A DNA stretch of 64,000 nucleotides, from assembly GCA_016791265.1 (NCBI GenBank), contig JAEUMY010000010.1:1-64000 (forward strand), read 5' to 3'. Of the stretch, positions 1 to 64,000 are shown piece by piece. Source of the DNA: Betaproteobacteria bacterium. Lineage in GTDB: Bacteria; Pseudomonadota; Gammaproteobacteria; Burkholderiales; Usitatibacteraceae. The position numbers and the translations under genes were made by a program. The notes under the pieces are model-generated. The model saw only the letters and a program-made list of their open reading frames with translations. It had not been told where the DNA came from and searched no databases. Position 1 is the first letter of the stretch. Every line of letters begins with the position of its first letter.

Positions 1-72
1 GTTGCACCTTTATGTTGCAGATGGCGTGGTGCGGGGCATTGCTAATATTCGCAATGCCGCGCACCACACACT

Positions 73-1185
73 TCAGCGAGTCCCGAGGATGTCCTCAAGC
101 AGCTTGCGTTTTTGGGCGCAACGCGGCTGATCCCAACACGACTTGAGCTTGAAGCGGATCTCGCCCTCTTCAGTGACGCGCACTTCCCACGGTCGTTTCA
201 TCAGCACGGTGTGGACGTAGGTGACAAAACTCTCCGCGAAATCGTCGCCGGGATTGGTGGCCGCGTAGAGCGTGGGGAAATTCGTGGATTCGATCCAGCG
301 ATACGCGTCGATCATGCGCCTGCCTTCCAGATTCGCGCCGAAGTAGTAGCGCACCTTGCGGCGCTCCGGAAACGCGGCATCGAAGAGCGACACGTGACCC
401 AGCTTTTCATCCCACGTCCATGACAGGTCGTGAAAGGGGTAGGCGCCGCTCTTGAGTTCCTGGCCGTTTGGCCGGTCCCAACGCGAATGGATGCCGCCCT
501 GGGTCGCGAGCGCGTGGCCCAGCTCGTGCAGCAGAATGTACTGGATGGCGTTGACGCGACTGTTTTCCTGATCCCGGCCACGTCCGATGCCAGTCCCCTT
601 GCCTTCCGGCCCCGCGATCACGGCTTCGATTCGCCAACGAGGATCGTCGCGGAAGGGCGTGTTCTCCTTCCAGCTTGCCCACTCGTTCGCGCGGCGGTCT
701 TGCAACTGACGCGGGTCCAGCACGATGAAGCCGACACCTTCCGCAGGACCCCAACGAATGATGTCTGCGAACCCGGAGCCGCCGATGTCTTCGATGAACC
801 AGATTCCGGCGAGGCGCCGATCCAGCAAGTTGCGAATATTCGCCGGAATGCCGTTCAATGCGGCCCGCACGTCGGCCATGAAGTCTGGAGTCAGCGCGGG
901 TGCACGCGGTCTTGCGGGAATACCGAGCTTGATCACATCAAGGGTCAGGTATTCGATCAATTCCGGCGGCGCGGCGCCGATGCGCTCGACAAGCGGTTTC
1001 GCCCGCACCGCGCGCCAGAATTCCAGAGTGCGCACCTTGTGCGAGATCGCCTTCTGATAGGCGCACTCCTTGTCCGTGCGTGCGCAGGGCAAGGCGGGCT
1101 CCTGCGCAATGGCCGCACGCGCGATCATAAGCAGCAGCGGGAGCAGACAATGGCCGAGTGCGAACGCGGCGGCTTGGCGCGTCAC
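73..1185 (-). CDS. secreted HEXXH zinc metalloprotease-like protein
   Basis: A 370-residue protein with a GTG start and an N-terminal hydrophobic signal sequence (about residues 5-27, ending AIAQ). A classical zinc-protease motif HELGH sits at residues 220-224, and a downstream acidic patch (DDFAESF) could supply the third zinc ligand. Function is inferred from the motif only; the substrate is unknown, and it is not an M48-type protein because it lacks the usual membrane context. It is the last gene of a minus-strand series with the ACT-domain gene (19 bp upstream) and the crotonase. One exact GCGAATATTCGC copy at 832-843 lies in the reading frame and encodes A-N-I-R. Confidence 0.75.
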   Translation of the reverse strand: MTRQAAAFALGHCLLPLLLMIARAAIAQEPALPCARTDKECAYQKAISHKVRTLEFWRAVRAKPLVERIGAAPPELIEYLTLDVIKLGIPARPRAPALTPDFMADVRAALNGIPANIRNLLDRRLAGIWFIEDIGGSGFADIIRWGPAEGVGFIVLDPRQLQDRRANEWASWKENTPFRDDPRWRIEAVIAGPEGKGTGIGRGRDQENSRVNAIQYILLHELGHALATQGGIHSRWDRPNGQELKSGAYPFHDLSWTWDEKLGHVSLFDAAFPERRKVRYYFGANLEGRRMIDAYRWIESTNFPTLYAATNPGDDFAESFVTYVHTVLMKRPWEVRVTEEGEIRFKLKSCWDQPRCAQKRKLLEDILGTR

Positions 1186-1204
1186 AAATGCGCCCTCTCA
1201 CCGC

Positions 1205-1729
1205 TCAAGCCGACTTCCGTCCGAACTCCAGATCCACCATGAGATCGTTGGCGAGGCCTTCCAGCCCGCGCCGAATGTCGCCCAGCGCCACCCCTTCAGG
1301 CACGTCGATCTCGGCGTTCATCTCGAACAATTGCTCGCCCGACATGGCGCCGCTCACGATGGCGGTGGTGAGGGTTGCGATGCTGACACCCTGGCGCGTG
1401 AGCTCGGCCGAAATGGTCTGGATGATGCCGGGGCGGTCGTGACCGACGAGGCAAAGCGCCATGCGCCGCGTGGGCGCGGGTTTGGGGCCGCCGGCCACGG
1501 CGACGACGACCTGCATGCCGGGTGCGGCCAGTGCGCGCAGCTCCGCTGACAAGGCCTCGATCTCGTCTGCGTCCACCTGCAAGTGGACGATGCCGGCGAA
1601 CTGCCCGGCCAGATTGGCCATGAGGCTCTCCGCCCAATTGGCGCCGTGCGCCAGCGCGCGCTCGGACACCGCGTTGACCATGCCGGGCCGGTCAGGCCCG
1701 ATCAGCGTGACCACCAGGGATTTGTTCAT
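1205..1729 (-). CDS. ACT-domain protein, GcvR-like
   Basis: 174 residues made of two ACT domains: the first starts at the N-terminus (VVTLIGPDRPGMV) and the second near residue 92 (LCLVGHDRPGII). This two-ACT layout is that of the glycine cleavage system repressor GcvR and related amino-acid-sensing proteins, which act by protein contact rather than by binding DNA. The start was set at the ATG at 1729 because a purine-rich GAGGAG lies just upstream; the frame stays open further upstream to 1804. The gene sits between a crotonase gene and a metalloprotease gene on the same strand, which gives no direct clue to its target. Confidence 0.75.
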   Translation of the reverse strand: MNKSLVVTLIGPDRPGMVNAVSERALAHGANWAESLMANLAGQFAGIVHLQVDADEIEALSAELRALAAPGMQVVVAVAGGPKPAPTRRMALCLVGHDRPGIIQTISAELTRQGVSIATLTTAIVSGAMSGEQLFEMNAEIDVPEGVALGDIRRGLEGLANDLMVDLEFGRKSA

Positions 1730-1861
1730 GTCGCTGTTCTCCTCGCCGGTTGCGGCCGGGTTGCGTTGTTGCATTTCCGTGACCGCGCCTCGGGCGCGCG
1801 CCACGTCCGCATCTTCCGCCGCTTTGCGCGCGTTGTCGATGACGTGTCTGCGCCGCGCCGA

Positions 1862-2689
1862 TCAGCGACCGATCTTGCGCGGCAAATAGGCCGGCGGATC
1901 GCCTTCCGCCAGGTTGCGCTTCGCGGCGATGCGCAGATTGGGCGAGCGAAACATCTGCCGCTGGCGCTTGCGCTCCTCCGCCAGCGCGGCCCACTCGCTG
2001 GATGGCCACGCGCGCTGCAACAGAAACTTGCCCGCCGCGACAGCGTCCGGCGAGCGCTCGCGAATATTCGCAATCAACGGTTGCACCGCCACGAGTGGAT
2101 CGTCGGCGACTTCGGTCACCAGGCCCAGCGCGAGCGCATCCGCGCCCGAGATGACCTCCGCCGTCAGCGTCAATCGCTTGGCGATGTCGATGGGCACCAA
2201 CTCGCGCAGGAGCACCGTGCCGCCCATGTCGGGCACCAGCCCCCATTTCGCCTCCATGACGGCCAGCCGCGCGTCGGGCGTGGTGATACGCAAGTCGGCA
2301 CCCAGCGCGAGCTGCATGCCGGCGCCGAGGCAATTGCCGTGAATGAGCGCCACCACCGGCACCGGCAGATCGCGCCAGCCCAGGCTCCACTGTTGGAAGA
2401 TGTTGCGCGAAGGTGCGAAAAGGCGCACGAATCCCCACAGGGCGGCGCGCTTGTCGCCCAACACGGACTTCACGTCCAGCCCGGCGCAGAAGGACGGTCC
2501 CTCGCCTCGCAGGAGCACCACGCGAATATTCGCGTCTCGGTGAATGCGCGCCTGCGCCGCGACCACCGCCTTCAACATGCGAAAGTCCATCGCATTGTGC
2601 TTGTCCGGTCGGGCAAGCGTCACGTGGGCGATGCCGTCGGCCACATCCAGGCGAACGCGCTCGTCGATCAATTCAGTGGCTGCATTCAT
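1862..2689 (-). CDS. crotonase-family enoyl-CoA hydratase/isomerase
   Basis: 275 residues with the crotonase fold signatures: a CoA-binding loop (SFCAGLDVKS), the oxyanion-hole region (HGNCLGAGMQLALGADLR) and the segment MEAKWGLVPDMGGT that carries the first catalytic glutamate. The position that usually carries the second catalytic glutamate is not an obvious match (AKRLTLTAEVIS), so the reaction may be isomerase or hydrolase rather than hydration; this is inference. Two exact 12-mer palindromes (2060-2071 and 2522-2533) lie in frame as A-N-I-R. It is the first gene of a probable operon with the ACT-domain gene 132 bp downstream. Confidence 0.85.
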   Translation of the reverse strand: MNAATELIDERVRLDVADGIAHVTLARPDKHNAMDFRMLKAVVAAQARIHRDANIRVVLLRGEGPSFCAGLDVKSVLGDKRAALWGFVRLFAPSRNIFQQWSLGWRDLPVPVVALIHGNCLGAGMQLALGADLRITTPDARLAVMEAKWGLVPDMGGTVLLRELVPIDIAKRLTLTAEVISGADALALGLVTEVADDPLVAVQPLIANIRERSPDAVAAGKFLLQRAWPSSEWAALAEERKRQRQMFRSPNLRIAAKRNLAEGDPPAYLPRKIGR

Positions 2690-4102: not shown

Positions 4103-4114
4103 GCGAATATTCGC
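4103..4114. repeat. GCGAATATTCGC, exact copy
   Basis: Lies 26 bp after the stop of the secreted-protein gene and 73 bp before the next start, in a same-strand gap. Confidence 0.95.
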
Positions 4115-5094: not shown

Positions 5095-5937
5095 ATGCGC
5101 GCCTTGAGTGTCCCCAGGTTTCTCGGTTTGCGAATATTCGCTTGCGCTGTCGGCGCGGTCGCGGTCGGCGTCCTCTTCTCAGGCTGCGCCACCACCACCC
5201 GCCCTGGCGAAGTGGGTGTTGAGCGACAGCAATTCATGCTCGTGTCCGCGGCCGAAGTCGAGCGCATGTCCGCGACGTCCTACAACAACCAGGCCAACCA
5301 GGCGCGCGCGCAAGGCAAGCTCATCAGCAGCGGTCCCGAGTACGACCGGCTGAGAAAGATCGCCAACCGCATCATCGCGCAGGCCGGCGTGTTTCGCGAC
5401 GACACCAAGCGCTGGAACTGGCAGTTGACGCTCATCGACTCGCCCGCGCTCAACGCATCCTGCATGCCCGGCGGGAAGATCACGTTCTATAGCGGTATCA
5501 TCCGCAGACTGAAGCTCACCGATCCCGAAATCGCCGCCATCATGGGTCATGAGGTTGCCCACGCGCTGCGTGAACACGGCCGCGAAAAAGTCTCTCGCGC
5601 CATGGGCCAGCAATTGCTGCTGGAGCTGGCACTGGGCGGCAAATCCAACTCGGCCGAGCAGATCAAGTTCGCGCAGCAGGTCGGCAATCTGCTCATCACG
5701 CTGCCCAATTCCCGCGAGAACGAATCCGAGGCGGATCGCATCGGCATCGAACTCTCCGCGCGCGCGGGCTACGACCCGATGGGCGCCGTCAACGTCTGGC
5801 GCAAGATGGCCGCGGCCGGAGGCGGCGGAACACCCGAGTTCCTCTCCACCCATCCCTCCCACGCCAACCGCATCAACGAGCTGACCCAGCTTCAAACGGT
5901 GGTGCGGCCGCTGTACGAAGCGGCACCCAAACCGTAG
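5095..5937 (+). CDS. M48-family metalloprotease lipoprotein, LoiP-like
   Basis: 280 residues. A lipoprotein signal peptide ends in FSGC, so the mature protein should be attached to the envelope by lipid. The zinc motif HEVAH is at residues 152-156 and the third ligand lies in ENESEADRIG, the arrangement of periplasmic M48 proteases such as LoiP/YggG that degrade misfolded outer-membrane proteins. An exact 12-mer palindrome (5130-5141) sits inside the signal-peptide coding part and reads R-I-F-A. The start ATG at 5095 follows the previous gene by 7 bp. Confidence 0.88.
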   Translation: MRALSVPRFLGLRIFACAVGAVAVGVLFSGCATTTRPGEVGVERQQFMLVSAAEVERMSATSYNNQANQARAQGKLISSGPEYDRLRKIANRIIAQAGVFRDDTKRWNWQLTLIDSPALNASCMPGGKITFYSGIIRRLKLTDPEIAAIMGHEVAHALREHGREKVSRAMGQQLLLELALGGKSNSAEQIKFAQQVGNLLITLPNSRENESEADRIGIELSARAGYDPMGAVNVWRKMAAAGGGGTPEFLSTHPSHANRINELTQLQTVVRPLYEAAPKP

Positions 5938-6512: not shown

Positions 6513-6626
6513 ACCTGCGCCTCCGCGCGTGTCAGCGCTCTCCACCACTGCCACCATCCGCTCCAGATCACCAGCGCAGTTCGCATTGCGAACGATCTTG
6601 ACCGAATATGGACGGTCGGCGCATTC

Positions 6627-7172
6627 TCAGAATGAAACGACCACGCTGGCGACAGCGGCGTAGAACACGACGCCGATGATCGCGGCGATGAGGAGGCCAT
6701 GCGCGGTTGCGTAGCCTTCGCGAAGCGTGGAGAGGTAAATCCAGGTGGCGGCAGGGAGAACGAGCGCGATGGCTGTCGCCACGCCGGGAACATAGGCCTG
6801 AAGCGCGACCGCGGCTGCAATGTGAGGGAACAGGGCATTGCTTGCGAAGACGGCAAGGACGGCCAGCAGCGCGTAGACAGCGACGCTACGCCGGCTTGCG
6901 CGAGCGGCCAGGACCGAGAGGGCCAGCAAGGCTAGCGTCAGGCAGAGCAAGGAGAGACGAAATGCTGGTCCAGCCCAAATTGCAGCGAGGTCCATTGTGG
7001 CGTAGCGCTTCAAGAGGTCCACATTCGCAAGAGCCCAGTCACGAGCGAAAAGAGCCTCCTCCGCGTTGTGTGCCGCAAGCGCCAGGAATGCGACGGAACT
7101 CCTGAGCGGCTGGCGGGAGGTCAAGGGCGGCTCTTCTGACACCTGCGAGTGTAAGGGCTGATTGCGTGTCAT
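6627..7172 (-). CDS. HXXEE-domain integral membrane protein
   Basis: 181 residues with an H-N-A-E-E motif near residue 35 and about four or five hydrophobic segments. This fits the HXXEE domain family, whose biochemical role is not known; the conserved His and Glu residues suggest metal binding. It is convergent with the DksA-like gene. It lies just outside the cassette array but on the same strand as the cassettes. Confidence 0.7.
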   Translation of the reverse strand: MTRNQPLHSQVSEEPPLTSRQPLRSSVAFLALAAHNAEEALFARDWALANVDLLKRYATMDLAAIWAGPAFRLSLLCLTLALLALSVLAARASRRSVAVYALLAVLAVFASNALFPHIAAAVALQAYVPGVATAIALVLPAATWIYLSTLREGYATAHGLLIAAIIGVVFYAAVASVVVSF

Positions 7173-7177
7173 CCTGG

Positions 7178-7387
7178 CTACGCGCTCGGTGGATGGCTAC
7201 CGTGCTTTGCCAGATCGCAAGCACGTTCAATCCAGGTGATGCCCTCTGCGAACTGAATTGAAATGCGCACAGGCAGGGTGCCTGGTTCGTCGAAAAATGC
7301 GCTTTGCAGGTCATTCATGCCGGGCAGAACAGCGGCGTCCGCATACAAGAGTCTCGTTCCGTAGTTCGGAACACTGCCGCCAGCCAT
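7178..7387 (-). CDS. possible small protein, uncertain
   Basis: An open frame of about 69 residues beginning MAGGSVPNYG. It is the only plausible coding content in the 7173-7493 stretch on this strand. The composition is protein-like (few Arg/Ala runs) but there is no recognised domain and no clear ribosome site. It could be the remnant of a longer gene cut by the rearrangement at the left edge of the cassette array. Confidence 0.25.
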   Translation of the reverse strand: MAGGSVPNYGTRLLYADAAVLPGMNDLQSAFFDEPGTLPVRISIQFAEGITWIERACDLAKHGSHPPSA

Positions 7388-7485
7388 GCTGCGTTGACTC
7401 GCACGTCCAAGGCTCACCCAAAGTGTGACGCCCAACCCAAGTGCTGCCGGCAAGCACGCGCGACAACAGCCCGAAGCGCGCGTAG

Positions 7486-7620
7486 TCAACCCGTCACAAT
7501 CGCGCCGGAGCCGCTGAGCGTGTTGCGAATATTCGCAAACACTGCGGCCAGCGCAATACACGGCAGCGCCCATCATGCGGTTCCCTCTGGCTGAACGTGG
7601 CCAGTCTGCCACACAGCCCC
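7486..7620. repeat. left flank repeat of the cassette array
   Basis: Shares an ordered set of words with 10494-10632: a GTCACAATCGC block, then the 12-mer palindrome followed by AAACACTG, then GTCTGCCACAC about 111-112 bp from the first block in both copies. The sequence between the words has diverged. The two copies bracket the gene cassettes in the same orientation. Confidence 0.6.
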
Positions 7621-7946
7621 CGCTTCCGCCTCGCGCCCTGAGCGGAAGCTGGCAGATGAGCCTTCGCGTCCCCCGCGACCAGTTGCAGGCGGTCCGCGAG
7701 TCCGCGGTTCCTGGCAGTCTGAAAAGCCTGCTGAAACCCCGCGTCGCTCAAGTCGAGGCCGATGCCAGTGATGGCGCCGTTTGCCTCAAGCAGTCGGGTT
7801 AGCAGTGCTGCCCAGCCGCAACCCACATCCACCACAGTGCCGTCTGCGCGGGCGGCGACGAACTGTACGAGTTCACTCGCACGTTGCCCCGAAAGGGGCG
7901 ACATGAACTCCAAGTAGCGATGGAAGGGGGCGAAATCCGCAGGCAT
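7494..7946 (-). pseudogene. class I SAM methyltransferase, 3' end replaced
   Basis: The first roughly 100 residues look like a genuine class I methyltransferase: motif I VVDVGCGWAALL, then the acidic end of the next strand (GIGLDLS) and a GDA motif. After about residue 97 (nt ~7650) the frame turns into Arg/Cys-rich sequence that runs into the flank repeat and ends at 7494, so the C-terminal half of the fold is missing. Its start lies 22 bp from an attC-like site, so it was probably the last cassette and was truncated when the array recombined. A 12-mer palindrome (7525-7536) is inside the read-through tail. Confidence 0.55.
7525..7536. repeat. GCGAATATTCGC, exact copy
   Basis: In the left flank repeat of the cassette array; the same position is occupied in the right flank copy (10535-10546). 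Confidence 0.95.
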
Positions 7947-7968
7947 GATTGCGGCGTGTTCCTGTGCG

Positions 7969-8028
7969 GCCTAACGCCTGAATTAGGCCGACCCGCGAAG
8001 CGGGTTCGGCTCGAATGAATTGTTAGGC
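7969..8028 (-). other. attC-like recombination site
   Basis: 60 bp bounded by GCCTAAC (7969-7975) and GTTAGGC (8022-8028), with an inner imperfect hairpin (ACCCGC/GCGGGT). This is the R''/R' layout of integron attC sites. The stop codon of the neighbouring cassette gene lies inside the site, as is common in integron cassettes. Confidence 0.8.
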
Positions 8029-8307
8029 CTCTGAGTCATGACTGGGGTCATCAAGGCATTCACAGCACATTGCTTGGCCACCACATTTTGGACAGCGCTC
8101 AACGTCACAGCCAGGATCATGAAGTTGGCCCTTTAGCGCGAGGCAATCGTGGCAAGGTCCATCATTGGCGCCCCAGTCCTCTTCTTCTGAGCCAAATGGT
8201 ATTCGCTTGTACTCTAGCCCGCCGATGGTGTAAGTCGTTTCCTCTTGGGCGGCAAGTAATCTCTCGCGTCTGCCGTGCTCAATTCGTTTGCGAAGCCAGT
8301 TCAGCAT
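8023..8307 (-). CDS. cassette protein with cysteine-rich zinc-binding motif
   Basis: 94 residues. The C-terminal half has [15 protein letters not shown] and CCEC, enough cysteines for one or two zinc sites; the N-terminal part is basic and helical. No functional family is recognised. The TAA stop is part of the GCCTAAC box of the attC site, which supports both the reading frame and its status as a mobile gene cassette. Confidence 0.7.
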
Positions 8308-8323
8308 GTGAGTTTTCCTTGAG

Positions 8324-8380
8324 GCCTAACGGCTTAGGCCAAAGGTGGCCGAAGGCCATCAGCTCTGGGCCGACGAGTCA
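8324..8380 (-). other. degenerate attC-like site
   Basis: Starts with the GCCTAAC box (8324-8330) and contains a GGTGGCC/GGCCATC hairpin, but the expected GTTAGGC partner is not found before the next gene. It may be a decayed or recombined attC belonging to the cassette at 8437-8736. Confidence 0.45.
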
Positions 8381-8436
8381 TGCATGAAATTCTCCGATGA
8401 CTTCAATTTCGCCAACAATATGGGAATTGAGCATAT

Positions 8437-8736
8437 CTAAGTCTTCGGCAGCACCCACCACTCGCTGTGGTGCGATGCACCAACTTGCTCAATCTTGTAA
8501 CGGTCCATGAAGTCTTTTCGCACTTCAAAGCGGGTAACGAAGCCAGAGCCGCTAACCTTTACATTCCAATCACGCGCAATCTCGGTTGCATATTGCTCAT
8601 TCGTGACGGGATAGAAGATAGGTTGGCCCGGCAGTCTTGGCGGCCACTTCTTGAAGCCGCTCTTCCGGACAAGATCCAGCTCTTCAGGCCCGGTGGGTCT
8701 AAACAGCGTGACTGCGGCGTGATTGGATTCAGGCAT
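8437..8736 (-). CDS. cassette protein, ADP-ribosylation/crystallin J1-like
   Basis: 99 residues. The order TLFRPTGPEELDLV, then WPPRLPGQPIFYPVTNEQYA, then IARDWN, then VTRFEV matches proteins I recall as annotated ADP-ribosylation/crystallin J1 in many proteobacteria. The biochemical role of that small family is not established. The start ATG at 8736 was preferred over the longer frame (to 8763) because the longer one would run into the attC site. Confidence 0.65.
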   Translation of the reverse strand: MPESNHAAVTLFRPTGPEELDLVRKSGFKKWPPRLPGQPIFYPVTNEQYATEIARDWNVKVSGSGFVTRFEVRKDFMDRYKIEQVGASHHSEWWVLPKT

Positions 8737-8739
8737 AGC

Positions 8740-8805: not shown

Positions 8806-8819
8806 GCACTTCACCGCGG

Positions 8820-55135: not shown

Positions 55136-55197
55136 AGGCTAGTCATCGCAGACACTCGCAGATGAGCAAAGCGCTCGATGCTGAACGCATGGCGCAT

Positions 55198-55215: not shown

Positions 55216-55223
55216 ACTGGCCC

Positions 55224-55400: not shown

Positions 55401-55413
55401 CAAGGAGACTCTC

Positions 55414-55833
55414 ATGCGCTATCCCGTGACCCTGACGCCCGACAAAAAAAGTGGAGGATTTGTCGTCACCTTCCGCGATCTGCCTGAAGCGATCACCCAG
55501 GGCGACACCTTCGAGGAAGCCTTGGCGATGGCGCAAGAAGCGCTGGAGTTGGCGCTCGAATTCTATTTCGAGGACAAGCGTCTCGTGCCCGAGCCATCAC
55601 GCCCCAAGCGCGGCCAGCACGTGGTGGAACTTCCTGCGAGTCTGGCGGCGAAAGTATTGCTACTCAACGAAATGATCGCCCAGAACGTGCGTCCGGCCGA
55701 GTTGGCGCGGCGCCTCAACACCACGCCACAGGAAGTGAACAGGCTCACCAATCTGCGTCACACCACCCGCATTGACGGCATCGAAGCGGCGCTCCGCGCG
55801 CTGGGTCGGCAATTGGAACTCCGGGTGGCCTGA
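55414..55833 (+). CDS. hicB: HicB antitoxin with C-terminal DNA-binding domain
   Basis: 139 residues: an N-terminal HicB fold (YPVTLTPDKKSGGFVVTFRDLPEAITQGDTFEEALAMAQEALELAL) and a C-terminal helix-turn-helix (RPAELARRLNTTPQEVNRLTNLRHTTRIDGIEAAL). It should neutralise HicA and repress the pair through the upstream palindrome. The pair sits between gspE and gspF, with a 12-mer palindrome immediately after hicB. Confidence 0.88.
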   Translation: MRYPVTLTPDKKSGGFVVTFRDLPEAITQGDTFEEALAMAQEALELALEFYFEDKRLVPEPSRPKRGQHVVELPASLAAKVLLLNEMIAQNVRPAELARRLNTTPQEVNRLTNLRHTTRIDGIEAALRALGRQLELRVA

Positions 55834-55834
55834 T

Positions 55835-55846
55835 GCGAATATTCGC
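55835..55846. repeat. GCGAATATTCGC, exact copy
   Basis: Starts 2 bp after the hicB stop codon and ends 15 bp before the gspF start. Confidence 0.95.
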
Positions 55847-55860
55847 AGTGGCTTAACTCC

Positions 55861-57072
55861 ATGCCCGGATACCGCTACAAAGCCGTTGATGCCGAGGGCC
55901 GCGAAACCCGCGGCGTGCTCGAAGTCGACAGCCCACGCCAGGCGCGTGCGCAGTTGCGCGAGCAGGGACTGTTTCCCGTCGACGTCACCGCGATTGAAGC
56001 GGCCAACGACGCCAGCTCGCCGCAGCGCACCTTGCGCATGGCGAGCGCTGACCTCGCCAACCTCACCCGCCAACTCTCCACGCTGCTGAACGCCGGCCTC
56101 ACGGTCGAGGCCACGCTGTCCGCGCTCATCGAACAGGCCGACACCGACCGCGACAAGCAGATCCTCGCGGGGCTGCGCGGTGACGTGCTCGCGGGCCAGT
56201 CGCTGGCGACCGCGATGGGCCGTTTCCCGCGCGTGTTCGACGAGCTCTATCGCACGCTGGTCAATGCCGGCGAGACCTCCGGCAAACTGGCTGAGGTGCT
56301 GTCCCGCCTCGCGGATCACGTCGAGGAACAGCACGCGCTGAAGCAGAAGCTGATGATGGCGATGATCTATCCCGCCATCGTGCTGGTGGTGTCGCTCGCG
56401 GTGGTGCTTGCGATGATGGTGTACGTCGTGCCGCAGGTCGTCGGGGTGTTCGACCGCACCAGCCAGACCTTGCCGCTGCTCACCCGCGCGCTGCTCGGAC
56501 TCTCCAAATTCATCCAGGCCACCGGCGTGTATTGGCTCGTGGCTGGCGTGATCGGCGTGTGGTTCGCCCGCCGGTCGCTCAAGAACGAAGCCGTGCGCCG
56601 CCGCTGGCATTTCTGGCTGCTCGGCCTGCCGCTCATCGGACGGCTGGAGCGGTCACGCAATGCCGCGCAGCTCGCCTCGACGCTGGCCATTCTCGGCGGC
56701 AGCGGCGTGCCGATTCTCACGGCCATGGATGCCGCGGCAGGTGTGGTGTCCAGCCTGCCCATGCGCGATGCGGTCGAACGCGCCGCCAAGGCCGTGCAGG
56801 AAGGTGCTGCACTCTCCCGCGCGCTGGGCGCATCCGGTCTTTTTCCGCCGGTGATGGTTCACCTGATCGCCTCTGGCGAAGCCAGCGGCCGCCTGCCCGA
56901 AACGCTGGCTTCCGCCGCGCGCCAGCAGCAAAACGAGGTCAGCCTCAAGGTCGCCGCCTTCGCCGCGCTGGCCGAACCGGCGCTGATCCTCTTCATGGCA
57001 GGTGTGGTGCTGCTGATCGTGCTGGCGGTGCTGCTGCCGATCTTCCAACTCAATCAACTCGTGGGACGCTGA
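55861..57072 (+). CDS. gspF: type II secretion inner-membrane platform GspF
   Basis: 403 residues with the two T2SSF domains (first LTRQLSTLLNAGLTVEATLSALIEQA, second ARNAAQLASTLAILGGSGVPILTAMDAAAGV) and membrane segments such as MIYPAIVLVVSLAVVLAMMVYVVPQVV. It forms the platform that works with GspE. Confidence 0.95.
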   Translation: MPGYRYKAVDAEGRETRGVLEVDSPRQARAQLREQGLFPVDVTAIEAANDASSPQRTLRMASADLANLTRQLSTLLNAGLTVEATLSALIEQADTDRDKQILAGLRGDVLAGQSLATAMGRFPRVFDELYRTLVNAGETSGKLAEVLSRLADHVEEQHALKQKLMMAMIYPAIVLVVSLAVVLAMMVYVVPQVVGVFDRTSQTLPLLTRALLGLSKFIQATGVYWLVAGVIGVWFARRSLKNEAVRRRWHFWLLGLPLIGRLERSRNAAQLASTLAILGGSGVPILTAMDAAAGVVSSLPMRDAVERAAKAVQEGAALSRALGASGLFPPVMVHLIASGEASGRLPETLASAARQQQNEVSLKVAAFAALAEPALILFMAGVVLLIVLAVLLPIFQLNQLVGR

Positions 57073-57074
57073 GC

Positions 57075-57605
57075 ATGACCTTTACTCGCCATCCATCCAT
57101 CCGTCGCAGTGCTGCATGGTTTGAACTTGGGCCCCGGCCCGTCATTCCCGCGAAGGCGGGAACGGGGCGACGCTGCGCGCGCGCACTGCGCGCTGGCAGC
57201 GTCGGCTTCACGCTGATCGAGATCATGATCGTGGTGGTGATTCTCGGCATTCTCGCCGCGGTCATCGTGCCCAATGTCATGGATCGACCCGACATGGCCC
57301 GCGTCGCCGCGGCCAAGCAGGACATCGCACAGATCAGCCAGGCGCTGAAGCTCTATCGCCTCGACAACCAGGCCTATCCCAGCACCGACCAGGGCCTGCA
57401 GGCGTTGATCGCAAAGCCCGCCACCAATCCGGTGCCCGGCAACTGGCGCAAGTATCTCGAGCGCCTGCCCAAGGACCCGTGGGGCAACGACTACCAGTAC
57501 CTCAATCCCGGCGTGAAGGGCGAGTTCGATGTCTTCAGCCTCGGCGCGGACAAGGCCCCAGGTGGTGAGGGCAACAACGCCGATATCGGCAACTGGAATC
57601 TGTGA
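57075..57605 (+). CDS. gspG: major pseudopilin GspG with repeat-extended leader
   Basis: 176 residues. The cleavage motif GFTLIEIMIVVVILGILAA starts near residue 44; after cleavage the mature pseudopilin (to about 133 residues) has the C-terminal GspG calcium-binding-type end (EGNNADIGNWNL). The leader of about 43 residues is far longer than the usual 5-10 because a hairpin repeat (57125-57192) is translated in it (ELGPRPVIPAKAGTGRR...). No better start lies closer to the motif. Starts 2 bp after gspF. Confidence 0.85.
   Translation: MTFTRHPSIRRSAAWFELGPRPVIPAKAGTGRRCARALRAGSVGFTLIEIMIVVVILGILAAVIVPNVMDRPDMARVAAAKQDIAQISQALKLYRLDNQAYPSTDQGLQALIAKPATNPVPGNWRKYLERLPKDPWGNDYQYLNPGVKGEFDVFSLGADKAPGGEGNNADIGNWNL
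57125..57192 (+). repeat. hairpin repeat inside the gspG leader
   Basis: Word order: GAACTTGGGCCCC, then the arms CCCGTCATTCCCGC/GCGGGAACGGGG around GAAG, then CGACGCTGCGCGCGCG. Related units lie in gspH (57626, 57689, 57773) and gspI (58331). Confidence 0.8.
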
Positions 57606-58270
57606 GGGATGTCGTCTCGCTGAGAGAACTTGGGCCCCGTTCTCCAACGGGGCGACTGCGCATGACGGCGCTGCACGCCGAATGGTTTGAACTTAGGCCC
57701 CGGCCCGTCATTCTCGCGAAGGCGGGAACGGGGCGACGCTGCGCGCGCGCACTGCGCGTGAATGGGTGTCCGGAACTTGGGCCCCGTTCTTCAACGGGGC
57801 GACTGCCCGAGCGGGCAGTCGGCTTCACCCTCATCGAACTCCTCGTCGTCACGGTCATCATCGGTATCGGGCTGGCACTGGCACTGGCCAATCTGCAACC
57901 GGATGACTCGCAGGCTGCACGACGCGATGCCCACGCACTTGCAGGACAGCTCGAACGTATCCAGGAGCGCGCGCTCTTCGGCGGCCAGGCCATCGGCGTG
58001 ACCTTTGGCGCGGACGGTCCGCAGACCTGGCAGCGCGATCCCAAGGGCGAGTGGGTCGCGGTCACGTTCGATGCGAATATTCGTAAAGCGGACATCGCGG
58101 TGGAAGCCTTGAAGCTCGGCGCCAAAGTGATGGAGACCGATGCGCGCATGGTCTTCCTGCCGGACGGCATGAGCCTGCCCTTCGAGCTCACCGTGAGTCG
58201 CAACGGGCATCGCTTCCTCATCACCGGCGACCCGCTGGGGCGGATCAGCGTGAGCGCGGTGCAGTCATGA
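57602..58270 (+). CDS. gspH: minor pseudopilin GspH with repeat-extended leader
   Basis: 222 residues from a GTG that overlaps the gspG stop (GTGA). The cleavage motif GFTLIELLVVTVIIG begins at residue 74 if this start is used; a GTG at 57758 would shorten the leader to about 22. The leader contains three hairpin units (see repeats) read in frame. A near-copy of the 12-mer (58073-58084, last base T) is in frame as A-N-I-R, the change being synonymous. Confidence 0.8.
   Translation: MRDVVSLRELGPRSPTGRLRMTALHAEWFELRPRPVILAKAGTGRRCARALRVNGCPELGPRSSTGRLPERAVGFTLIELLVVTVIIGIGLALALANLQPDDSQAARRDAHALAGQLERIQERALFGGQAIGVTFGADGPQTWQRDPKGEWVAVTFDANIRKADIAVEALKLGAKVMETDARMVFLPDGMSLPFELTVSRNGHRFLITGDPLGRISVSAVQS
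57626..57660 (+). repeat. short hairpin unit in the gspH leader
   Basis: GAACTTGGGCCCC with arms CCCCGTT/AACGGGG and GGCGACTGC; shares its start with the gspG unit. Confidence 0.7.
57689..57757 (+). repeat. long hairpin unit in the gspH leader
   Basis: Nearly identical to the gspG unit (CCCGTCATT ... GGCGGGAACGGGGCGACGCTGCGCGCGCG); differs by a few bases (ACTTAGG, TTCTCGC). Confidence 0.8.
57773..57820 (+). repeat. second short hairpin unit in the gspH leader
   Basis: Same start as the other units, followed by CCCCGTT/AACGGGG arms and a second hairpin GACTGCCCG/CGGGCAGTC immediately before GGCTTCACC, the codons of the cleavage motif. Confidence 0.7.
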
Positions 58271-58749
58271 AAGTGCTTGCTCGACATTGCTGGCAGTCGC
58301 GCACTTGCAAACGTGCTGCAACTTGTCGTGGCGAACTTGGGCCCCCGCCTACGCGGGGGCGACGCTGCGCGCGCGCACTGCACGCTCACAGCGTCGGCTT
58401 CACCCTCATCGAAGTGCTGGTGGCGCTGGCCATTCTCGGCATTGCGTTGGCGGCATCGATGCGCACGCTGAATCTCTCCATCGATACCGCGCGCGAAACC
58501 CGAGAGCGCCTCGCCGCCACCTGGGTGCTGCAGAACCGGCTGGCGGAGATCGAGGCGCGACGGCTCTTCCCCGAAGCCGGCGAGACCCGCGGCGAGCTGG
58601 TGTACGCCGGTTTGCGCCTGCAGTGGAAGCAGCGCGTGGTGGAGACACCCAACGCCGCCTTCCGCCGCATTGAACTCTCCGCCGCGCTTGCAGACCAGCC
58701 GGACTATGCGCTGGCCAAGTTGAATGGCTACGCGGTGCAGACGCCATGA
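58267..58749 (+). CDS. gspI: minor pseudopilin GspI with repeat-extended leader
   Basis: 160 residues. The start ATG overlaps the gspH stop (ATGA). GFTLIEVLVALAILGIALA begins near residue 45, giving a leader of about 44 residues that includes a hairpin unit (58331-58390) read as ELGPPPTRGRR. The mature part is short, as in GspI. Confidence 0.82.
   Translation: MKVLARHCWQSRTCKRAATCRGELGPPPTRGRRCARALHAHSVGFTLIEVLVALAILGIALAASMRTLNLSIDTARETRERLAATWVLQNRLAEIEARRLFPEAGETRGELVYAGLRLQWKQRVVETPNAAFRRIELSAALADQPDYALAKLNGYAVQTP
58331..58390 (+). repeat. hairpin unit in the gspI leader
   Basis: GCGAACTTGGGCC with arms CCCCCGC/GCGGGGG around CTAC, then CGACGCTGCGCGCGCGCACTG; the same order as in gspG. 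Confidence 0.8.
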
Positions 58750-59390
58750 GGAACCCATTCGTTCGCAGCGGCATGAAGCACCAACAGGCCTTCACCCTCA
58801 TCGAAGTCCTGGCCGCCATGGTCATCTTCGCCATCATGGCGGTGATGTCCTATCGCGCGCTGGCCGGCGTGCTCGACTCACGCGAACGGCTGGAGGCTGA
58901 AGCGACCAAATGGCGCAACCTCGCCATCTTCTTCGCCCGCCTGGAGCAGGATCTTGGCGCGACGCTGAATCGCCCGGTGCGGAGCATCGACGACATTTTC
59001 CAGCCCGCGCTGGCGGTGAACCCGGATACCGGCGCCGAGGCCGCACTGGCGTTCACGCGCAGCGGCTACGTCGGTGCCGAGGGCACGCTGGCCGCGCCGC
59101 AACGCATCGCTTACCGGCTGAAGGACAACAAGCTGGAACTCATGGTGTGGCCGCATCTCGACATGCCACCGCGAGGCAGCGCCACGGCCTACGCCGCGCT
59201 GGATGGCGTCACTGCCTTCAGCGTGCGCGCGCTGGACGCTGCCGGCAACTGGCAGCCGATCTGGCCGGTGCCCGGCACGGCGGCACAAGGCGGCGCCACC
59301 GCTGGCGCACTGCCCAACGGTATCGAGGTCACCGTCACCCTGGAAAGCGGCGAACTCTTTGCGCGAATATTCGCGTTACGGGGGCAGTAA
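58746..59390 (+). CDS. gspJ: minor pseudopilin GspJ
   Basis: 214 residues. The start ATG overlaps the gspI stop (ATGA). The leader is MRNPFVRSGMKHQQA, then FTLIEVLAAMVIFAIMAVMSYRAL; it has no hairpin insert, unlike its neighbours. A 12-mer palindrome (59363-59374) lies in the last codons (R-I-F-A). In the Gsp system GspI, J and K form the pseudopilus tip. Confidence 0.85.
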   Translation: MRNPFVRSGMKHQQAFTLIEVLAAMVIFAIMAVMSYRALAGVLDSRERLEAEATKWRNLAIFFARLEQDLGATLNRPVRSIDDIFQPALAVNPDTGAEAALAFTRSGYVGAEGTLAAPQRIAYRLKDNKLELMVWPHLDMPPRGSATAYAALDGVTAFSVRALDAAGNWQPIWPVPGTAAQGGATAGALPNGIEVTVTLESGELFARIFALRGQ

Positions 59391-59392
59391 GC

Positions 59393-60457
59393 ATGGAGAC
59401 CGTTGCCATGGGAGGCGGGAGGCGGAAGGCGGGAGGCGGTTGCTTCGCAATCGATCCACATGCGCCGAAGCCTCTGTCACCAGCGCTTTCCGCCTGCCGC
59501 CTACCGCCTGCCGCCTGCCGTCAGCGCCAGCAAGGCGCGGCCATCATCGCCGCGCTGCTCGTCGTGGCGCTCGTCGCCATCACCGCCACCACCCTGCTCG
59601 CGCGGCAATCGCAGGCGCTGACCCGCGTCGAGGCCACGCTGTCGCGGGCGCAGGCGACAACTTTCGCCAACACCGGCATCCACTGGGCGCGCGGCATCCT
59701 CGCCGACGACGCGAAGCGCAATGCCGTCGATCACCTCGGCGAATCCTGGGCCAAACCGCTCGCCGCACTGCCGGTGGATGATGCGGTCGTGAGCGGGCGC
59801 ATCACCGATGCGCAAAGCCAGTTCAACCTCAACAATCTGGTGCGCAACAACCAGGCGAGCCCGAATGACATCCAGCTCCTGCGCCGTCTGCTGGACAAGC
59901 TGGAACTGAATCCCGAGCTCGCCTACGCCATCGCCGACTGGATCGATCCGGACAGCGAGGTGAACACGGCGGCCGGTGCGGAGGACGCCTTCTACCTCGC
60001 GCAGCGCGATCCCTACCGCGCCGCCAACCGCCCGCTGCAATCGGTGGACGAGCTGGCGCGCGTGCGCGGCTTCACGCCGGTGATGGTGGCAAAACTGAAG
60101 CCCTACGTCACAGCACTGCCTGCCATCACCCGCATCAATCTCAACACCGCCGACCCGCTGCTGATCGAGGCCACGCTGCCCGAGCTGGATGCGTCCGAGC
60201 GGCAGAAGCTGGTGAAAGAGCGCGAGAGCAAACCCTTCGAGCAGCTCGCCGACATCGCGGCGCGCTACCCCAAGGCGCCGCCCACGGTGGTGAACAACGA
60301 CCTCGACGTGAAGAGCCAGTTCTTCACCGTCACCGTGGCCATCTCGGCCGGCACGCGCGAGCATCCGGTCACGCTGGCGTCCGAGGCGCTGCTGCGCCGC
60401 GATGGTGGCGGGGCCAACCAGGGGTGGCCCGCTATAATTCGCGTCAATCCTTTCTGA
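59393..60457 (+). CDS. gspK: minor pseudopilin GspK with repeat-extended leader
   Basis: 354 residues. A hydrophobic segment (GAAIIAALLVVALVAITATTLLARQ) begins near residue 49. GspK pseudopilins are known to lack the Glu at position 5, and no FTLIE motif is present here. The long leader encodes Gly/Arg- and Cys/Pro-rich sequence because of an inverted repeat (59411-59519). The mature domain has the GspK features SLHAA-free helical core and DWIDPDSE. gspL follows after 49 bp. Confidence 0.82.
   Translation: METVAMGGGRRKAGGGCFAIDPHAPKPLSPALSACRLPPAACRQRQQGAAIIAALLVVALVAITATTLLARQSQALTRVEATLSRAQATTFANTGIHWARGILADDAKRNAVDHLGESWAKPLAALPVDDAVVSGRITDAQSQFNLNNLVRNNQASPNDIQLLRRLLDKLELNPELAYAIADWIDPDSEVNTAAGAEDAFYLAQRDPYRAANRPLQSVDELARVRGFTPVMVAKLKPYVTALPAITRINLNTADPLLIEATLPELDASERQKLVKERESKPFEQLADIAARYPKAPPTVVNNDLDVKSQFFTVTVAISAGTREHPVTLASEALLRRDGGGANQGWPAIIRVNPF
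59411..59519 (+). repeat. long imperfect inverted repeat in the gspK leader
   Basis: Left arm of GGCGGGAGGCGGAAGGCGGG type (59411-59439), right arm of CCGCCTGCCGCCTACCGCC type (59490-59519), with about 50 bp between. The arms differ from the ELGP-type units of gspG-I. Confidence 0.75.
60433..60438 (+). promoter_or_regulatory. possible internal -10 box for gspLMN
   Basis: TATAAT preceded by GC in the last codons of gspK, 70 bp before the gspL start. No clear -35 box is seen. Confidence 0.3.
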
Positions 60458-60506
60458 GTCTCCGATCGCGGCGCGTCGTCAGTGCGCGCAGCCTTCCACC
60501 ACCACC

Positions 60507-61697
60507 TTGCACCTCATCCTCCAACTCCCGGACAGCGTTCCCGGCAGCACCCCGCTCGGGGCCTGCCGCTGGTGGCTGCTCGACCGCAGCGGCGCGTTGC
60601 TGCGCGAGGGCACGAGCGCGCCCACAGAGGCACCGAAGGGGGAGCGGGTCACGGTCACTATTCCCGCCAACCGCGTGCTGTTCACCGAGCTGAAGCTACC
60701 GCCGGTGTCGGCCGCGCGGCTGGCCACGCTGCTGCCCTTCGCCATTGAAGACAAACTGATGAGCGACCCGGTGACCATTCTCGCGCTGGCTGGCCCGGCG
60801 AGTGCATCCGGCGAGCGAACCGTCGCAGTGGTCGACAAGCCCTGGCTCCTGCAATCGCTCTCCGCGTTGAAAGCGGTCGGGCTCAACCCCGATGCCGTCG
60901 TGCCGCAAAGCGAGCTGGTGCCGCGCACGGCAGGCGCTTGGTCCGCACTGCTGCCGCCCGGCGGGCGCGAAGGCGTATTGGTGCGCGAGGACGGATTCGC
61001 GCTGGCGTTCGATGTGTCGTCCGATCCCACGCCGCCGCTCGCTGTCGTGCTCGCGGTGAAGGAAGCCGGTGACAAGGCGCCGAAGAGCATCCTGGCGCTG
61101 GCCGCGAGCGAAGCCGAGGTGAGCGGCTGGAGCGCCGCGCTGAACCTCCCCGTCACGTGGCGCGCGCCGGCCTTGCGCGTCGACCAGAAATCCAGCTTCG
61201 ATTTTCTCGACCACGATGCCTTGCGAATATTCGCGAAGCGTTCCGACTGGGAGACGCTGTGGCCCGTGTTCAAGCCGGCCGCCGTCGTGGCCGGCCTCAT
61301 CGTGCTGTTCCACTTCGCCTCACTCGGCGTGTCCGTGTGGCAACTGAATCGCCAGGATGCGGCGGTGCGCAAAGAGATGGTCGCGACATTCCAATCCGCG
61401 TTTCCAGATGCCAAGGCCATTGTCGATCCGGCATTGCAGATGTCGCGCAACCTCGCCGATCTTCGCCGCGAACGCGGCCAGGCCACCGATCCCGTCGTGC
61501 CCGGCCTCGCCGCCATGCAGGGCTGGGCGCGAGCCGCGGGCGGCGAGGTGCGGCGCGTGCAGTTTGATGGCCGCAAACTGGTGGCGGAGATTGCATTCGC
61601 TTCCGGCGCGCCGAGCGCACCCGCGCCGGCCGGTCTCACCTGGGCGGCGAACGCAGATGGCAAATCCGGCCAACTGAGCTGGGAGGCCGCAAAATGA
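60507..61697 (+). CDS. gspL: type II secretion protein GspL
   Basis: 396 residues from a TTG start. A cytoplasmic actin-like N-terminal domain that contacts GspE (LPFAIEDKLMSDPVTI and the following beta-rich part), one membrane segment (about residues 255-275), and a periplasmic ferredoxin-like domain. Overlaps gspM by 4 nt. A 12-mer (61223-61234) is in frame as R-I-F-A. Confidence 0.85.
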   Translation: MHLILQLPDSVPGSTPLGACRWWLLDRSGALLREGTSAPTEAPKGERVTVTIPANRVLFTELKLPPVSAARLATLLPFAIEDKLMSDPVTILALAGPASASGERTVAVVDKPWLLQSLSALKAVGLNPDAVVPQSELVPRTAGAWSALLPPGGREGVLVREDGFALAFDVSSDPTPPLAVVLAVKEAGDKAPKSILALAASEAEVSGWSAALNLPVTWRAPALRVDQKSSFDFLDHDALRIFAKRSDWETLWPVFKPAAVVAGLIVLFHFASLGVSVWQLNRQDAAVRKEMVATFQSAFPDAKAIVDPALQMSRNLADLRRERGQATDPVVPGLAAMQGWARAAGGEVRRVQFDGRKLVAEIAFASGAPSAPAPAGLTWAANADGKSGQLSWEAAK

Positions 61698-62193: not shown

Positions 62194-62922
62194 ATGTGGC
62201 GCTGGGTTCTCTTTTTCCTTGCGGTGCTACTGATCGCTTTGGCCGCACGGTTGCCGGCATCATGGGCCGTATCGCAAGTACAAGATCGACTGAAGGCGAA
62301 GGTCGACATCGATAATGTGAAGGGAACAATCTGGCAGGGCAGCGCCGACCTGAAGCTCCCACAAGGCATCGTTATTGAACAGGCAACCTGGGAAGTTGCC
62401 CCGATTCCGCTGCTGTTCCTTTCACCGCGATTTACCTTGCAGTCGGCCTCGCCGGACCTCAAGGGCCGGACCAGTGTCGCGCTTGGATTCCGAAGTGTCG
62501 AGATCAATGAACTTGATGCAACGGTAACCGCAAGACTGGTCAGCGCCATAGAACCAAGGATCGGGGCGCTGGCTCCGGAAGGCAGCCTGCGGATCATGGT
62601 CTATCAGATGGACTGCTTCAATGATGGCTGTGAAGGCCAGACTCGACTGCAGTGGGAAAACGCTGCGGTTGCGTTGAGCGAACTGCGCCCCTTGGGGGAC
62701 TACCTCGGGATTCTCGATCTGAAACGCACCAAGGCTCACTACGAACTTAAGACGATGAAAGGCACGTTGCGTGCAGCGGGCCGGGGAAACTGGGAGCAGG
62801 GCAAGCTACCGACCTTCACCGGCGAACTCTCCGCCCCGCCCGATCAACTGTCGAAGGTGCAGGGCCTCATGCGCCTGCTCGGCACACCCGACGAACGCGG
62901 CGTGCTGCGCATCAATCGTTGA
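62194..62922 (+). CDS. gspN: type II secretion protein GspN
   Basis: 242 residues: one N-terminal membrane segment and a periplasmic part with GTIWQGSADLKLPQGIVIEQATWEVAPIPLL, the GspN pattern. GspN is optional in many T2SS operons. The gene is somewhat AT-richer than its neighbours. It ends the gsp operon. Confidence 0.85.
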   Translation: MWRWVLFFLAVLLIALAARLPASWAVSQVQDRLKAKVDIDNVKGTIWQGSADLKLPQGIVIEQATWEVAPIPLLFLSPRFTLQSASPDLKGRTSVALGFRSVEINELDATVTARLVSAIEPRIGALAPEGSLRIMVYQMDCFNDGCEGQTRLQWENAAVALSELRPLGDYLGILDLKRTKAHYELKTMKGTLRAAGRGNWEQGKLPTFTGELSAPPDQLSKVQGLMRLLGTPDERGVLRINR

Positions 62923-62932
62923 CGACGACACC

Positions 62933-63961
62933 ATGAGCACCGTTCCCACCGACGCGAATATTCGCAATGACAACCGCAGCGAGGAATCGCCGCATGCGTA
63001 CCGCGCGCCGTGGTGGCTGCCGGGCGGCCATCTGCAGACGGTGTACGCCTCTCTGTACGCCCCCAAGGCCGAGACCACCTATCGCCGCGAGCGCTGGGAC
63101 TGCACGCCGAACGGCCAGCCGGATGGTGATTTCATCGATGTCGATTTCGTCGATGGCGATGCCGACAAGCCGGTGCTGGTGCACTTCCATGGGCTGGAGG
63201 GCTCGTCGCAAAGCCAATACGCGCTGGGCTTCATGGCGCGTTGCAAGGAGCTGGGCTGGACCGGCCTCGTCGCGCACTTTCGCGGCTGCTCGGGCGAGCT
63301 GAATCGCCTGCCGCGGGCGTACCACTCGGGCGATTCGACCGAGATCGACTGGATCGTGCGGCGGGTCGCGGCGCGCTATCCGCAACAGCGAATATTCGCA
63401 GTCGGCGTGTCGCTGGGCGGCAACGCCACGCTGAAGTGGCTGGGCGAACGCAACAGCGAGGCCGCAGGCTTGCTTCATGCTGCCGTCGCCGTCTCCGCCC
63501 CTGTCGACCTCATGGCCGCGGGCGAGGCGCTGGGCCGCGGTTTCAGCCTCAACTACGCGAAGCATTTCCTGTCGACCATGCAGGCCAAGGCCGAGCGCAT
63601 GCACGCCAACCATCCCGGCGTGTTCGATCTCGCCGCCATGCGCACGGCACGCAACCTGCGCGAATACGACAACGTGGTCACCGCCCCCGTGCACGGCTAT
63701 CGCGACACGGACGATTACTGGACCCGCGCCTCGTCCAAACCCGGTCTCGCCGATGTCGCCGTGCCGACGCTGGTGCTGAACGCGAAGAACGACCCCTTCC
63801 TGCCTGCCAGCGCGCTGCCGACCAAGGCTCAGGTGTCGTCGCACGTCACCCTGCATTTCCCTGAGCACGGCGGCCATGTCGGCTGGCCCGCACCCGCTTT
63901 CCCCGGCCGCACCACCTGGCTCACGGATCGGGTCTTCAACTTCCTGCAACACGGCACCTGA
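62933..63961 (+). CDS. YheT-family alpha/beta hydrolase
   Basis: 342 residues. PWWLPGGHLQTVYASL is the YheT start; VLVHFHGLEGSSQSQYALGFM, the nucleophile motif GVSLGGN, Asp in NAKNDPFLP and His in HGGHVGW follow. The substrate is unknown. Two 12-mer palindromes: 62954-62965 in codons 8-11 (A-N-I-R) and 63388-63399 (R-I-F-A). The alternate upstream frame is not used because GspN ends only 10 bp before this ATG. Confidence 0.88.
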   Translation: MSTVPTDANIRNDNRSEESPHAYRAPWWLPGGHLQTVYASLYAPKAETTYRRERWDCTPNGQPDGDFIDVDFVDGDADKPVLVHFHGLEGSSQSQYALGFMARCKELGWTGLVAHFRGCSGELNRLPRAYHSGDSTEIDWIVRRVAARYPQQRIFAVGVSLGGNATLKWLGERNSEAAGLLHAAVAVSAPVDLMAAGEALGRGFSLNYAKHFLSTMQAKAERMHANHPGVFDLAAMRTARNLREYDNVVTAPVHGYRDTDDYWTRASSKPGLADVAVPTLVLNAKNDPFLPASALPTKAQVSSHVTLHFPEHGGHVGWPAPAFPGRTTWLTDRVFNFLQHGT

Positions 63962-63963
63962 AC

Positions 63964-64000
63964 ATGACCATTGCTCCTGAAATCTTCAAGGCCTACGACA
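63964..64000 (+). CDS. start of a phosphomannomutase/phosphoglucomutase-like gene (partial)
   Basis: Only 12 residues are visible (MTIAPEIFKAYD), cut by the window end. The start fits the phosphohexomutase family, whose members often begin with IFKAYDIRG. It follows the hydrolase by 2 bp. Confidence 0.6.
   Translation, partial: MTIAPEIFKAYD

Follow-up and report, generated by a model that had tools for sequence, protein, structure and literature searches.

Two kinds of short, highly repeated bacterial sequence come closest to the element described here. For the highly iterated palindrome HIP1 (GCGATCGC), excerpts from PMC3025956 give the view that sites form in place by mutation, and parts of Elhai 2015 (PMC4390886) describe methylases matched to HIP1 and to alternate highly iterated palindromes (HIPs), a bias of deviations towards the ends, and a density near one site per kb. 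The DNA uptake sequences (DUS) of Neisseriaceae and the uptake signal sequences (USS) of Pasteurellaceae are 9-12 bp long and number about 900-3,300 copies per genome, with all DUS dialects keeping a CTG core, according to excerpts from PMC3630211. For DUS, parts of Treangen et al. 2008 (PMC2397512) describe a location in the core genome, permissive positions, high conservation and a spacing linked to recombination. Here we analyse a 12-bp palindrome, GCGAATATTCGC, found in a 64-kb stretch of betaproteobacterial DNA (hereafter the window; positions 1 to 64,000 of contig JAEUMY010000010.1, assembly GCA_016791265.1).

The window holds 38 exact copies against 0.01 expected from dinucleotide shuffles. 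All 38 positions listed in an earlier, sequence-only reading of this DNA were verified, and the three one-mismatch copies it gave (at 41, 29884 and 58073) are all present. Contig C4, which begins with the window, belongs to a draft genome of 24 contigs, 89.9% complete, whose 3,937,828 bases contain 1,624 exact copies, about one per 2.4 kb, while the pattern read backwards, used as a control, occurs nowhere in the genome. The comparison with HIP1 made in that reading, as a frequent exact palindrome of a different sequence, is thus borne out on the scale of the whole genome. We read in detail a sample of 849,212 bases (21.6% of the genome, window included), which has 346 copies where Markov models of order 1-5, built with the copies masked, expect 0.07-0.66; an unmasked order-5 model expects 54.8, because the copies themselves feed the model. 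In its genome-wide excess far above Markov expectation, a comparison that the sequence-only reading had proposed, GCGAATATTCGC therefore behaves as a highly iterated palindrome. That reading had also named an assembly artefact as a possible refutation; this is rejected because the encoded peptides are found again in independently assembled proteins. An assembly artefact does lie at the start of contig C9, where positions 1-210 contain runs of 109 and 96 C.

The other genomes compared carry few copies. The 28 genomes from the same GTDB family include no other member of the window's genus, and the 27 others, from three other genera, have 0-4 copies each. The highest other count is 9 in a sample of the order (399 genomes, own included) and 4 in a sample of the phylum (398 genomes, own included), and none of the 778 other genomes altogether exceeds 9 copies. 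A wider contig scan returned at least 86 stretches with 1-2 copies each among the matches listed, from which records of the own genome may be absent, and it does not rule out other motif-rich genomes. As to a comparable short palindrome of another sequence, a dialect, none was found in 540 kb of relative G001, 120 kb of G009, 200 kb of G005, 145 kb of G004 or 16 kb of G002 (partly N). What G001 does carry is a dispersed repeat of at least 70 bp containing GGCAAACACGG and GTACCCAGTGTACGG, and G005 has tandem arrays of the unit GTAGACCGGTTCC. A phage-borne signal was considered and not adopted: a search of viral contigs with the 14-mer TGCGAATATTCGCA gave 102 stretches, each with at most two copies of the 12-mer. 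Among them the 46.8-kb contig IMGVR_UViG_3300022666_000335 contributes three separate stretches with a single copy apiece, at 56-58% GC, and is perhaps a phage of a motif-bearing host; a further viral contig appears with two stretches.

Anatomy and placement of the sites

The flanks extend the palindrome in a graded way. With the halves of the 346 sampled copies folded together, the bases outward are T (64%), T (40%), not-T (T in 11%) and C (46%), and there is little signal beyond the fourth position. The conserved site is therefore about 20 bp, approximately CVTTGCGAATATTCGCAABG, wider than the 12-mer, and the earlier statement that the exact 12-mer is what is kept was slightly off. Within the 12-mer, the sample holds 46 one-mismatch copies (3.0 expected by chance) beside the 346 exact ones, so that 88% of the two classes together are exact. 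The outermost base is the mismatched one in 27 of the 46, compared with 0.25 of the 3.0 expected; one-off variants are concentrated at the first and last positions, as in HIPs. Direct repeats in the flanks measure 3 nt in 2 of 346 copies and 4 nt in none, which amounts to no target-site duplication, and beyond the site the sampled copies are not homologous, a consensus at 60% reaching only the 14-mer TGCGAATATTCGCA. The motif alone can form a hairpin of 4 pairs; stem extensions of at least 6 pairs are rare but enriched, being found at 5 of 150 classified spacer copies and at 19 of 5,400 random spacer positions.

Copies favour the spaces between genes. Using our own simple gene caller, which assigns 81.6% of the sample to coding sequence and misses some genes (for example a KAP-family NTPase gene in the window), we placed 152 of the 346 copies in spacers, which make up 18.5% of the bases, and 194 in genes. 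Density per kb is 2.72 in convergent, 1.71 in tandem and 1.12 in divergent spacers (spacers up to 1 kb), and 0.28 in genes. There are about 0.3 copies per spacer whatever its length from 50 to 800 bp, and the first 20 nt after stop codons hold 52 copies where 37 are expected. Among genic copies the frame reading Ala-Asn-Ile-Arg is the commonest (109 of 194, vs 39 and 46 in the other frames), and the genes with the most adapted codons have the lowest density, 0.185 per kb vs 0.31-0.36 in the three lowest quintiles. The 61 5-kb windows below 62% GC contain 85 copies, and the remaining 108 contain 259.

We compared 319 spacings between neighbouring copies with 200 randomisations that kept the genic and spacer numbers. 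Spacings of up to 200 bp number 20 vs 36 expected (27-47), those of up to 400 bp 34 vs 62.7 (50-77), and those of up to 800 bp 84 vs 107 (94-122). The deficit of spacings of 60-400 bp shows that copies are more evenly spread than chance in the sampled parts. On a larger scale the numbers per 20 kb are near Poisson (mean 8.2, variance 10.3 over 42 sampled segments), and no copy-rich region pointing to the origin or terminus of replication appears in the 21.6% sampled, the contigs being unordered. Four palindromes lie together within 190 bp at C2:66571-66759, in partly repeated surroundings; inspection of this cluster revealed nothing clear that would make it an autoregulated gene. In the C2 segment where the cluster occupies positions 6571-6759, a glucose-6-phosphate isomerase gene was also noted (8663-8875), whose last codons read ANIRN.

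Retention and origin of the copies

Conservation was followed at the protein level only, metagenomic relatives being closer than any compared genome; the sources of these proteins are named, for example, Burkholderiales bacterium and Usitatibacter sp. Three proteins were aligned, using 20 rows of the 120 listed for ThiL, 16 of 120 for MnmC and 7 of 120 for NuoG, and the rows treated as sister lineages were chosen after the peptides had been seen. The encoded peptides are kept in 66 of 71 site-lineage cases (NuoG 8/8, ThiL 34/36, MnmC 24/27) while the flanks change. In NuoG, four lineages at 91-97% identity have ANIR at both sites, and the next one, at 76%, has ANIK at the first site and nothing alike at the second. 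In ThiL, 12 lineages that are 63-70% identical outside the sites keep 34 of 36 motif peptides, the exceptions being ASIR in P0131 and AGIE in P0134; all three peptides are missing from P0133, which has 64% identity outside the sites, and the lower-ranked P0134 keeps two. In MnmC, nine lineages at 68-76% identity keep 24 of 27, and the losses (EYL, KFS and RIFG) are one or two residues off.

Retention of this kind is informative where the surroundings vary, which is so at four of the six ThiL and MnmC sites. The flanks of MnmC site 416 are 37% identical, and of 16 windows whose flanks vary as much, none is as conserved; the corresponding numbers are 2 of 37 at MnmC site 426, 2 of 42 at ThiL site 275 and 6 of 78 at ThiL site 230. 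The motif bearers form one clade in the MnmC tree (support 100/100) and one group, weakly supported (64/82), in the ThiL tree. P0246 and P0247, sisters in the MnmC tree, have an extra ANIR at position 119 that is absent from the other 14 aligned rows, likely a later gain in place. Judged from the encoded peptides, the motif is old and has been retained in related lineages at orthologous, otherwise permissive positions, as DUS and USS are. Searching protein databases for the peptides ANIR, RIFA and EYS offers an inexpensive way to find members of the clade.

To compare substitution with insertion we used orthologs of at least 45% identity in the DNA of G001 or G009, which made 13 of the 194 sampled gene sites comparable. 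None of the 13 has a four-residue gap at the motif, three have one-residue indels nearby, and across the 12 bases the relatives carry 3-9 differences from the motif. Methionine synthase, for instance, reads TGSRVFAK in the relative and TGSRIFAK here, and by eye a tyrosyl-tRNA synthetase-like gene reads WVAKIRLQV in the relative and WVANIRKQV here. Among the orthologs below 45% identity, excluded from the comparison, two show a single-residue gap on the motif or a few residues away from it, and a third has larger gaps alongside. The NuoG relatives agree in large part: at site 300 the motif is ungapped in 23 of 23, two of which have a one- or two-residue gap just beside it, and at site 454 it is ungapped in 17 of 22. 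From these gene sites and NuoG rows, copies apparently arose in place by base substitution and not by insertion, so that the sites would form as HIP sites are thought to; the substitutions may have come by mutation or by recombination.

A recent burst of an inserted element was considered and rejected, there being no four-codon gaps and no target duplication, and the sites being old in related lineages. The suggestion in the sequence-only reading of a self-spreading sequence consequently found no support in the comparable gene sites or in the flanks.

Possible readers of the palindrome

The palindrome fits three known classes of dispersed signal: HIP1, DUS and USS, and the sites of chromosomal proteins. 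A protein likely reads it, and its symmetry suggests that this protein is a dimer. Our preferred reading, held tentatively, is that the palindrome serves as a self-DNA tag, which a dimeric protein would read and a bias in uptake or recombination would maintain. The driving step would be that tagged DNA is taken up or recombined preferentially. Recombination with such DNA would repair a site that had changed and fix newly arisen ones; a single site on each imported fragment would suffice, which would space the sites evenly; and small amino-acid costs would be outweighed, letting copies settle in enzyme genes, too, at permissive positions. The features we take as favouring a tag are the copy number, the in-place origin, the retention at permissive positions, the spacing, the preference for spacers, the lower number of copies in AT-richer windows, the low density in genes with the most adapted codons, and the presence, as open frames, of ComEC and two DprA-family genes. 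In-place origin, permissive retention, non-random spacing and spacer preference together match what the parts of PMC2397512 cited above describe for DUS. We prefer the tag chiefly because more than half of the sampled sites are genic and amino-acid-changing, a burden that a drive could bear more readily than roughly 1,600 small advantages, each of its own, could. A fuller proposal, on which we would put somewhat less weight, is that recognition of self-DNA has evolved here for a third time in bacteria, independently, and for the first time with a palindrome as the tag; some 1,600 copies and a dimeric receptor would serve the selective uptake and recombination of kin DNA in an apparently uncultured Burkholderiales clade.

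Several observations weigh against the tag. The uptake signals known so far lack a palindromic form (PMC1939737, PMC12616744), and a receptor of the pilin type would accordingly have no need of symmetry. The ratio of 346 exact to 46 one-mismatch copies is stricter than expected of a graded uptake bias. Spacings of up to 60 bp are not deficient (10 vs 12.7 expected), and the density is not low in genes whose codons are least adapted (0.334 per kb), which does not fit a rule that recently acquired genes lack them. The ComEC and DprA families are widespread, occurring in 10 and 11 of 14 control genomes. Two of the conserved sites, ThiL 113 and MnmC 190, lie in conserved stretches and are uninformative alone: 29 of 109 windows match the conservation of the former, and 39 of 285 that of the latter. 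In five relatives of genus g4 NuoG site 454 is gapped, by anything from 5 residues (just TANIR) to the whole stretch, and these five rows leave insertion possible at that site only, with genera g2 and g3 speaking against it. Finally, the features listed above would also suit an intracellular chromosome or repair protein.

Such a protein is the principal rival, and a genuinely possible one: the palindrome would be the binding site of an abundant intracellular homodimer that organises, segregates or repairs the chromosome, each site being under selection, as has been suggested for HIP1. The perfect symmetry, the graded flanks to about 20 bp and the concentration of mismatches at the outermost base are what a dimer operator would show, and even spacing, a near-Poisson spread over the 20-kb segments and long retention of sites suit it as well. 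The difficulty lies in the number and place of the sites, since each of about 1,600, more than half of them genic and amino-acid-changing in the sample, would need its own selective advantage, and in the lack of a copy-rich region at origin or terminus in the unordered, sampled contigs. A DNA methyltransferase that modifies the palindrome or its core, with methylation-directed mismatch repair creating and keeping sites by a ratchet of the kind Elhai proposed for HIP1, shares with our data the outer-position bias and the non-random spacing. We searched five Pfam methylase families in the 90%-complete assembly. PF02384 gave one N-6 methylase, type-I-like with an HsdM N-terminal domain but scoring under the cut-offs of NCBIfam; this resident enzyme, whose locus has 60% GC and contains 2 copies of the palindrome, counts in favour of the ratchet. 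PF01555 and PF02086, however, have no match; PF07669 matches the same HsdM-like gene and a ribosomal protein L3 methylase (TIGR03533); and PF00145 matches a single C5 methylase, which stands beside GmrSD-type and NOV_C-domain genes in a 49%-GC locus without the palindrome (contig C21, about 117-122 kb). This locus is probably a recent defence island, judged so because of its low GC and its freedom from a motif that is old. Type II methylases are not known to recognise more than about 8 bp, nor type I enzymes to have palindromic sites, which also counts against a methylase. The suggestion of a lone-methylase target in the sequence-only reading is weakened accordingly, few enzymes having been found, and none matched to the palindrome, among these five families in an assembly 90% complete, so that one may have been missed; we consider the ratchet unlikely.

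Two further explanations start from the many copies in spacers. If the palindrome acted as RNA, for example as a transcription terminator or processing site, the density peak in convergent spacers, the minimum among spacers in divergent ones, the excess just past stop codons and the enrichment of longer stems round spacer copies would follow; yet more than half of the sampled copies are inside genes, a long stem is lacking at 145 of the 150 spacer copies classified, and the motif's own hairpin is only 4 pairs, so we regard an RNA element as very improbable. For a tiny mobile or REP-like (repetitive extragenic palindromic) element copying itself to new places, one could cite, besides the copy number and the preference for spacers, the few copies within long hairpins, such as that at 21851 in the window, and the gaps over NuoG site 454 in the g4 relatives. 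Orthologous positions otherwise show substitution, though, and the copies have neither target-site duplications nor homology beyond TGCGAATATTCGCA, unlike the repeats of at least 70 bp in G001; this explanation is largely refuted, and we give it hardly any credence. Against this background the self-DNA tag is the reading we retain.

Copies in the window and likeness to known signals

The sequence-only estimate of about 22 intergenic copies in the window was a fair one, since 24 of the 38 lie outside called genes, three of them in a 4-kb stretch (6950-10936) that has no called gene, although one open reading frame there has a Pfam domain. These three are at 7525-7536, 10535-10546 and 10829-10840, the last upstream of a catalase-domain gene. 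Convergent spacers hold the copies at 12034-12045, 21851-21862 (the centre of a long hairpin), 40581-40592 and 47017-47028, and divergent ones those at 13309-13320 and 34490-34501. A short spacer between two genes (55833-55861) contains 55835-55846. The other spacer copies are at 4103-4114, 5130-5141, 15405-15416, 25663-25674, 27370-27381, 28337-28348, 32808-32819, 36128-36139 and 36168-36179 (the two starting 40 bp apart), 37091-37102 (upstream of a haloacid dehalogenase (HAD) hydrolase gene), 37958-37969, 38377-38388, 39161-39172 and 41451-41462. One-mismatch copies are GCTAATATTCGC at 41-52, TCGAATATTCGC at 29884-29895 and GCGAATATTCGT at 58073-58084.

Inside genes we find 832-843 in the called gene 73-1185(-), 2060-2071 and 2522-2533 in an enoyl-CoA hydratase gene (1862-2689(-)), 22689-22700 in an S9 peptidase gene (21879-23897(-)), 46405-46416 in an aminotransferase-V gene (45592-46722(+)), 47078-47089 and 47313-47324 in an adenylate/guanylate cyclase gene (47042-48541(-)), and 62954-62965 and 63388-63399 in an alpha/beta hydrolase gene (62933-63961(+)). 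The HAD hydrolase gene at 37183-37842(+) and its second copy at 41670-42329(+), 92% identical over 505 bases, have the palindrome at the same internal place (37412-37423 and 41899-41910). A type II secretion cluster (gspC, D, E, J and L-like, 48630-61697) carries it inside the gspC-like (49158-49169 in 48630-49511(+)), gspJ-like (59363-59374 in 58773-59390(+)) and gspL-like (61223-61234 in 60507-61697(+)) genes. The KAP-family P-loop NTPase gene at 43116-45431 is without a palindrome and possibly acquired. Downstream of the copy at 34490, an S-adenosylhomocysteine (SAH) riboswitch (RF01057, 45.8 bits) occupies 34611-34687 (+), just upstream of a MOSC-domain gene (34702-35460); SAH riboswitches usually precede genes of the SAH or methionine cycle, unlike the gene here.

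In the literature searched, including that on HIPs, uptake sequences and Usitatibacter, we found no description of the palindrome, and the sequence-only reading knew of none; as a text string the 12-mer turns up in four texts of one work on colibactin. Among known repeats, REP sequences, bacterial interspersed mosaic elements and miniature inverted-repeat transposable elements are dispersed, often in spacers, and palindromic, but they insert, are longer and have homologous flanks. Neither homologous flanks nor target duplications are seen for the palindrome here, and its copies do not have the character of such inserted repeats. Sites such as parS, Noc-binding sites, KOPS (FtsK-orienting polar sequences), Chi and matS are likewise short, exact, protein-bound chromosomal signals, with far fewer copies or a shorter, skewed or regional pattern; the present palindrome has about 1,600 copies, spread near to Poisson over the sampled segments.

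The likeness to DUS and USS is closer, extending to a length of 9-12 bp, high enrichment, orthologous permissive positions, non-random spacing and enrichment in non-coding DNA. Those signals are not palindromic, however, and the CTG core of DUS is absent here, so the palindrome is not a Neisseriaceae DUS. With HIP1 and the alternate HIPs it shares the form of a perfect GC-ended palindrome, hugely over-represented and sporadic among lineages, with deviations mostly at the ends and roughly one copy per one to two kb; symmetry and outer-position decay make it HIP-like and suggest a dimeric reader. It is not HIP1 proper, having another sequence (GCGAATATTCGC vs GCGATCGC) and a non-cyanobacterial host. 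It differs from HIPs, which are 8-10 bp, in its length of 12 bp, which graded flanks extend to about 20 bp, in belonging to what appears to be a betaproteobacterial clade, in having no matching methylase identified, and in its clear preference for spacers. An exact 12-bp palindrome is thus found in a clade unrelated to those of the known HIPs, with sister lineages that bear the motif and family members that lack it, a setting that allows one to ask how signals of this sort come about, whether they depend on methylation, and what protein is their reader.

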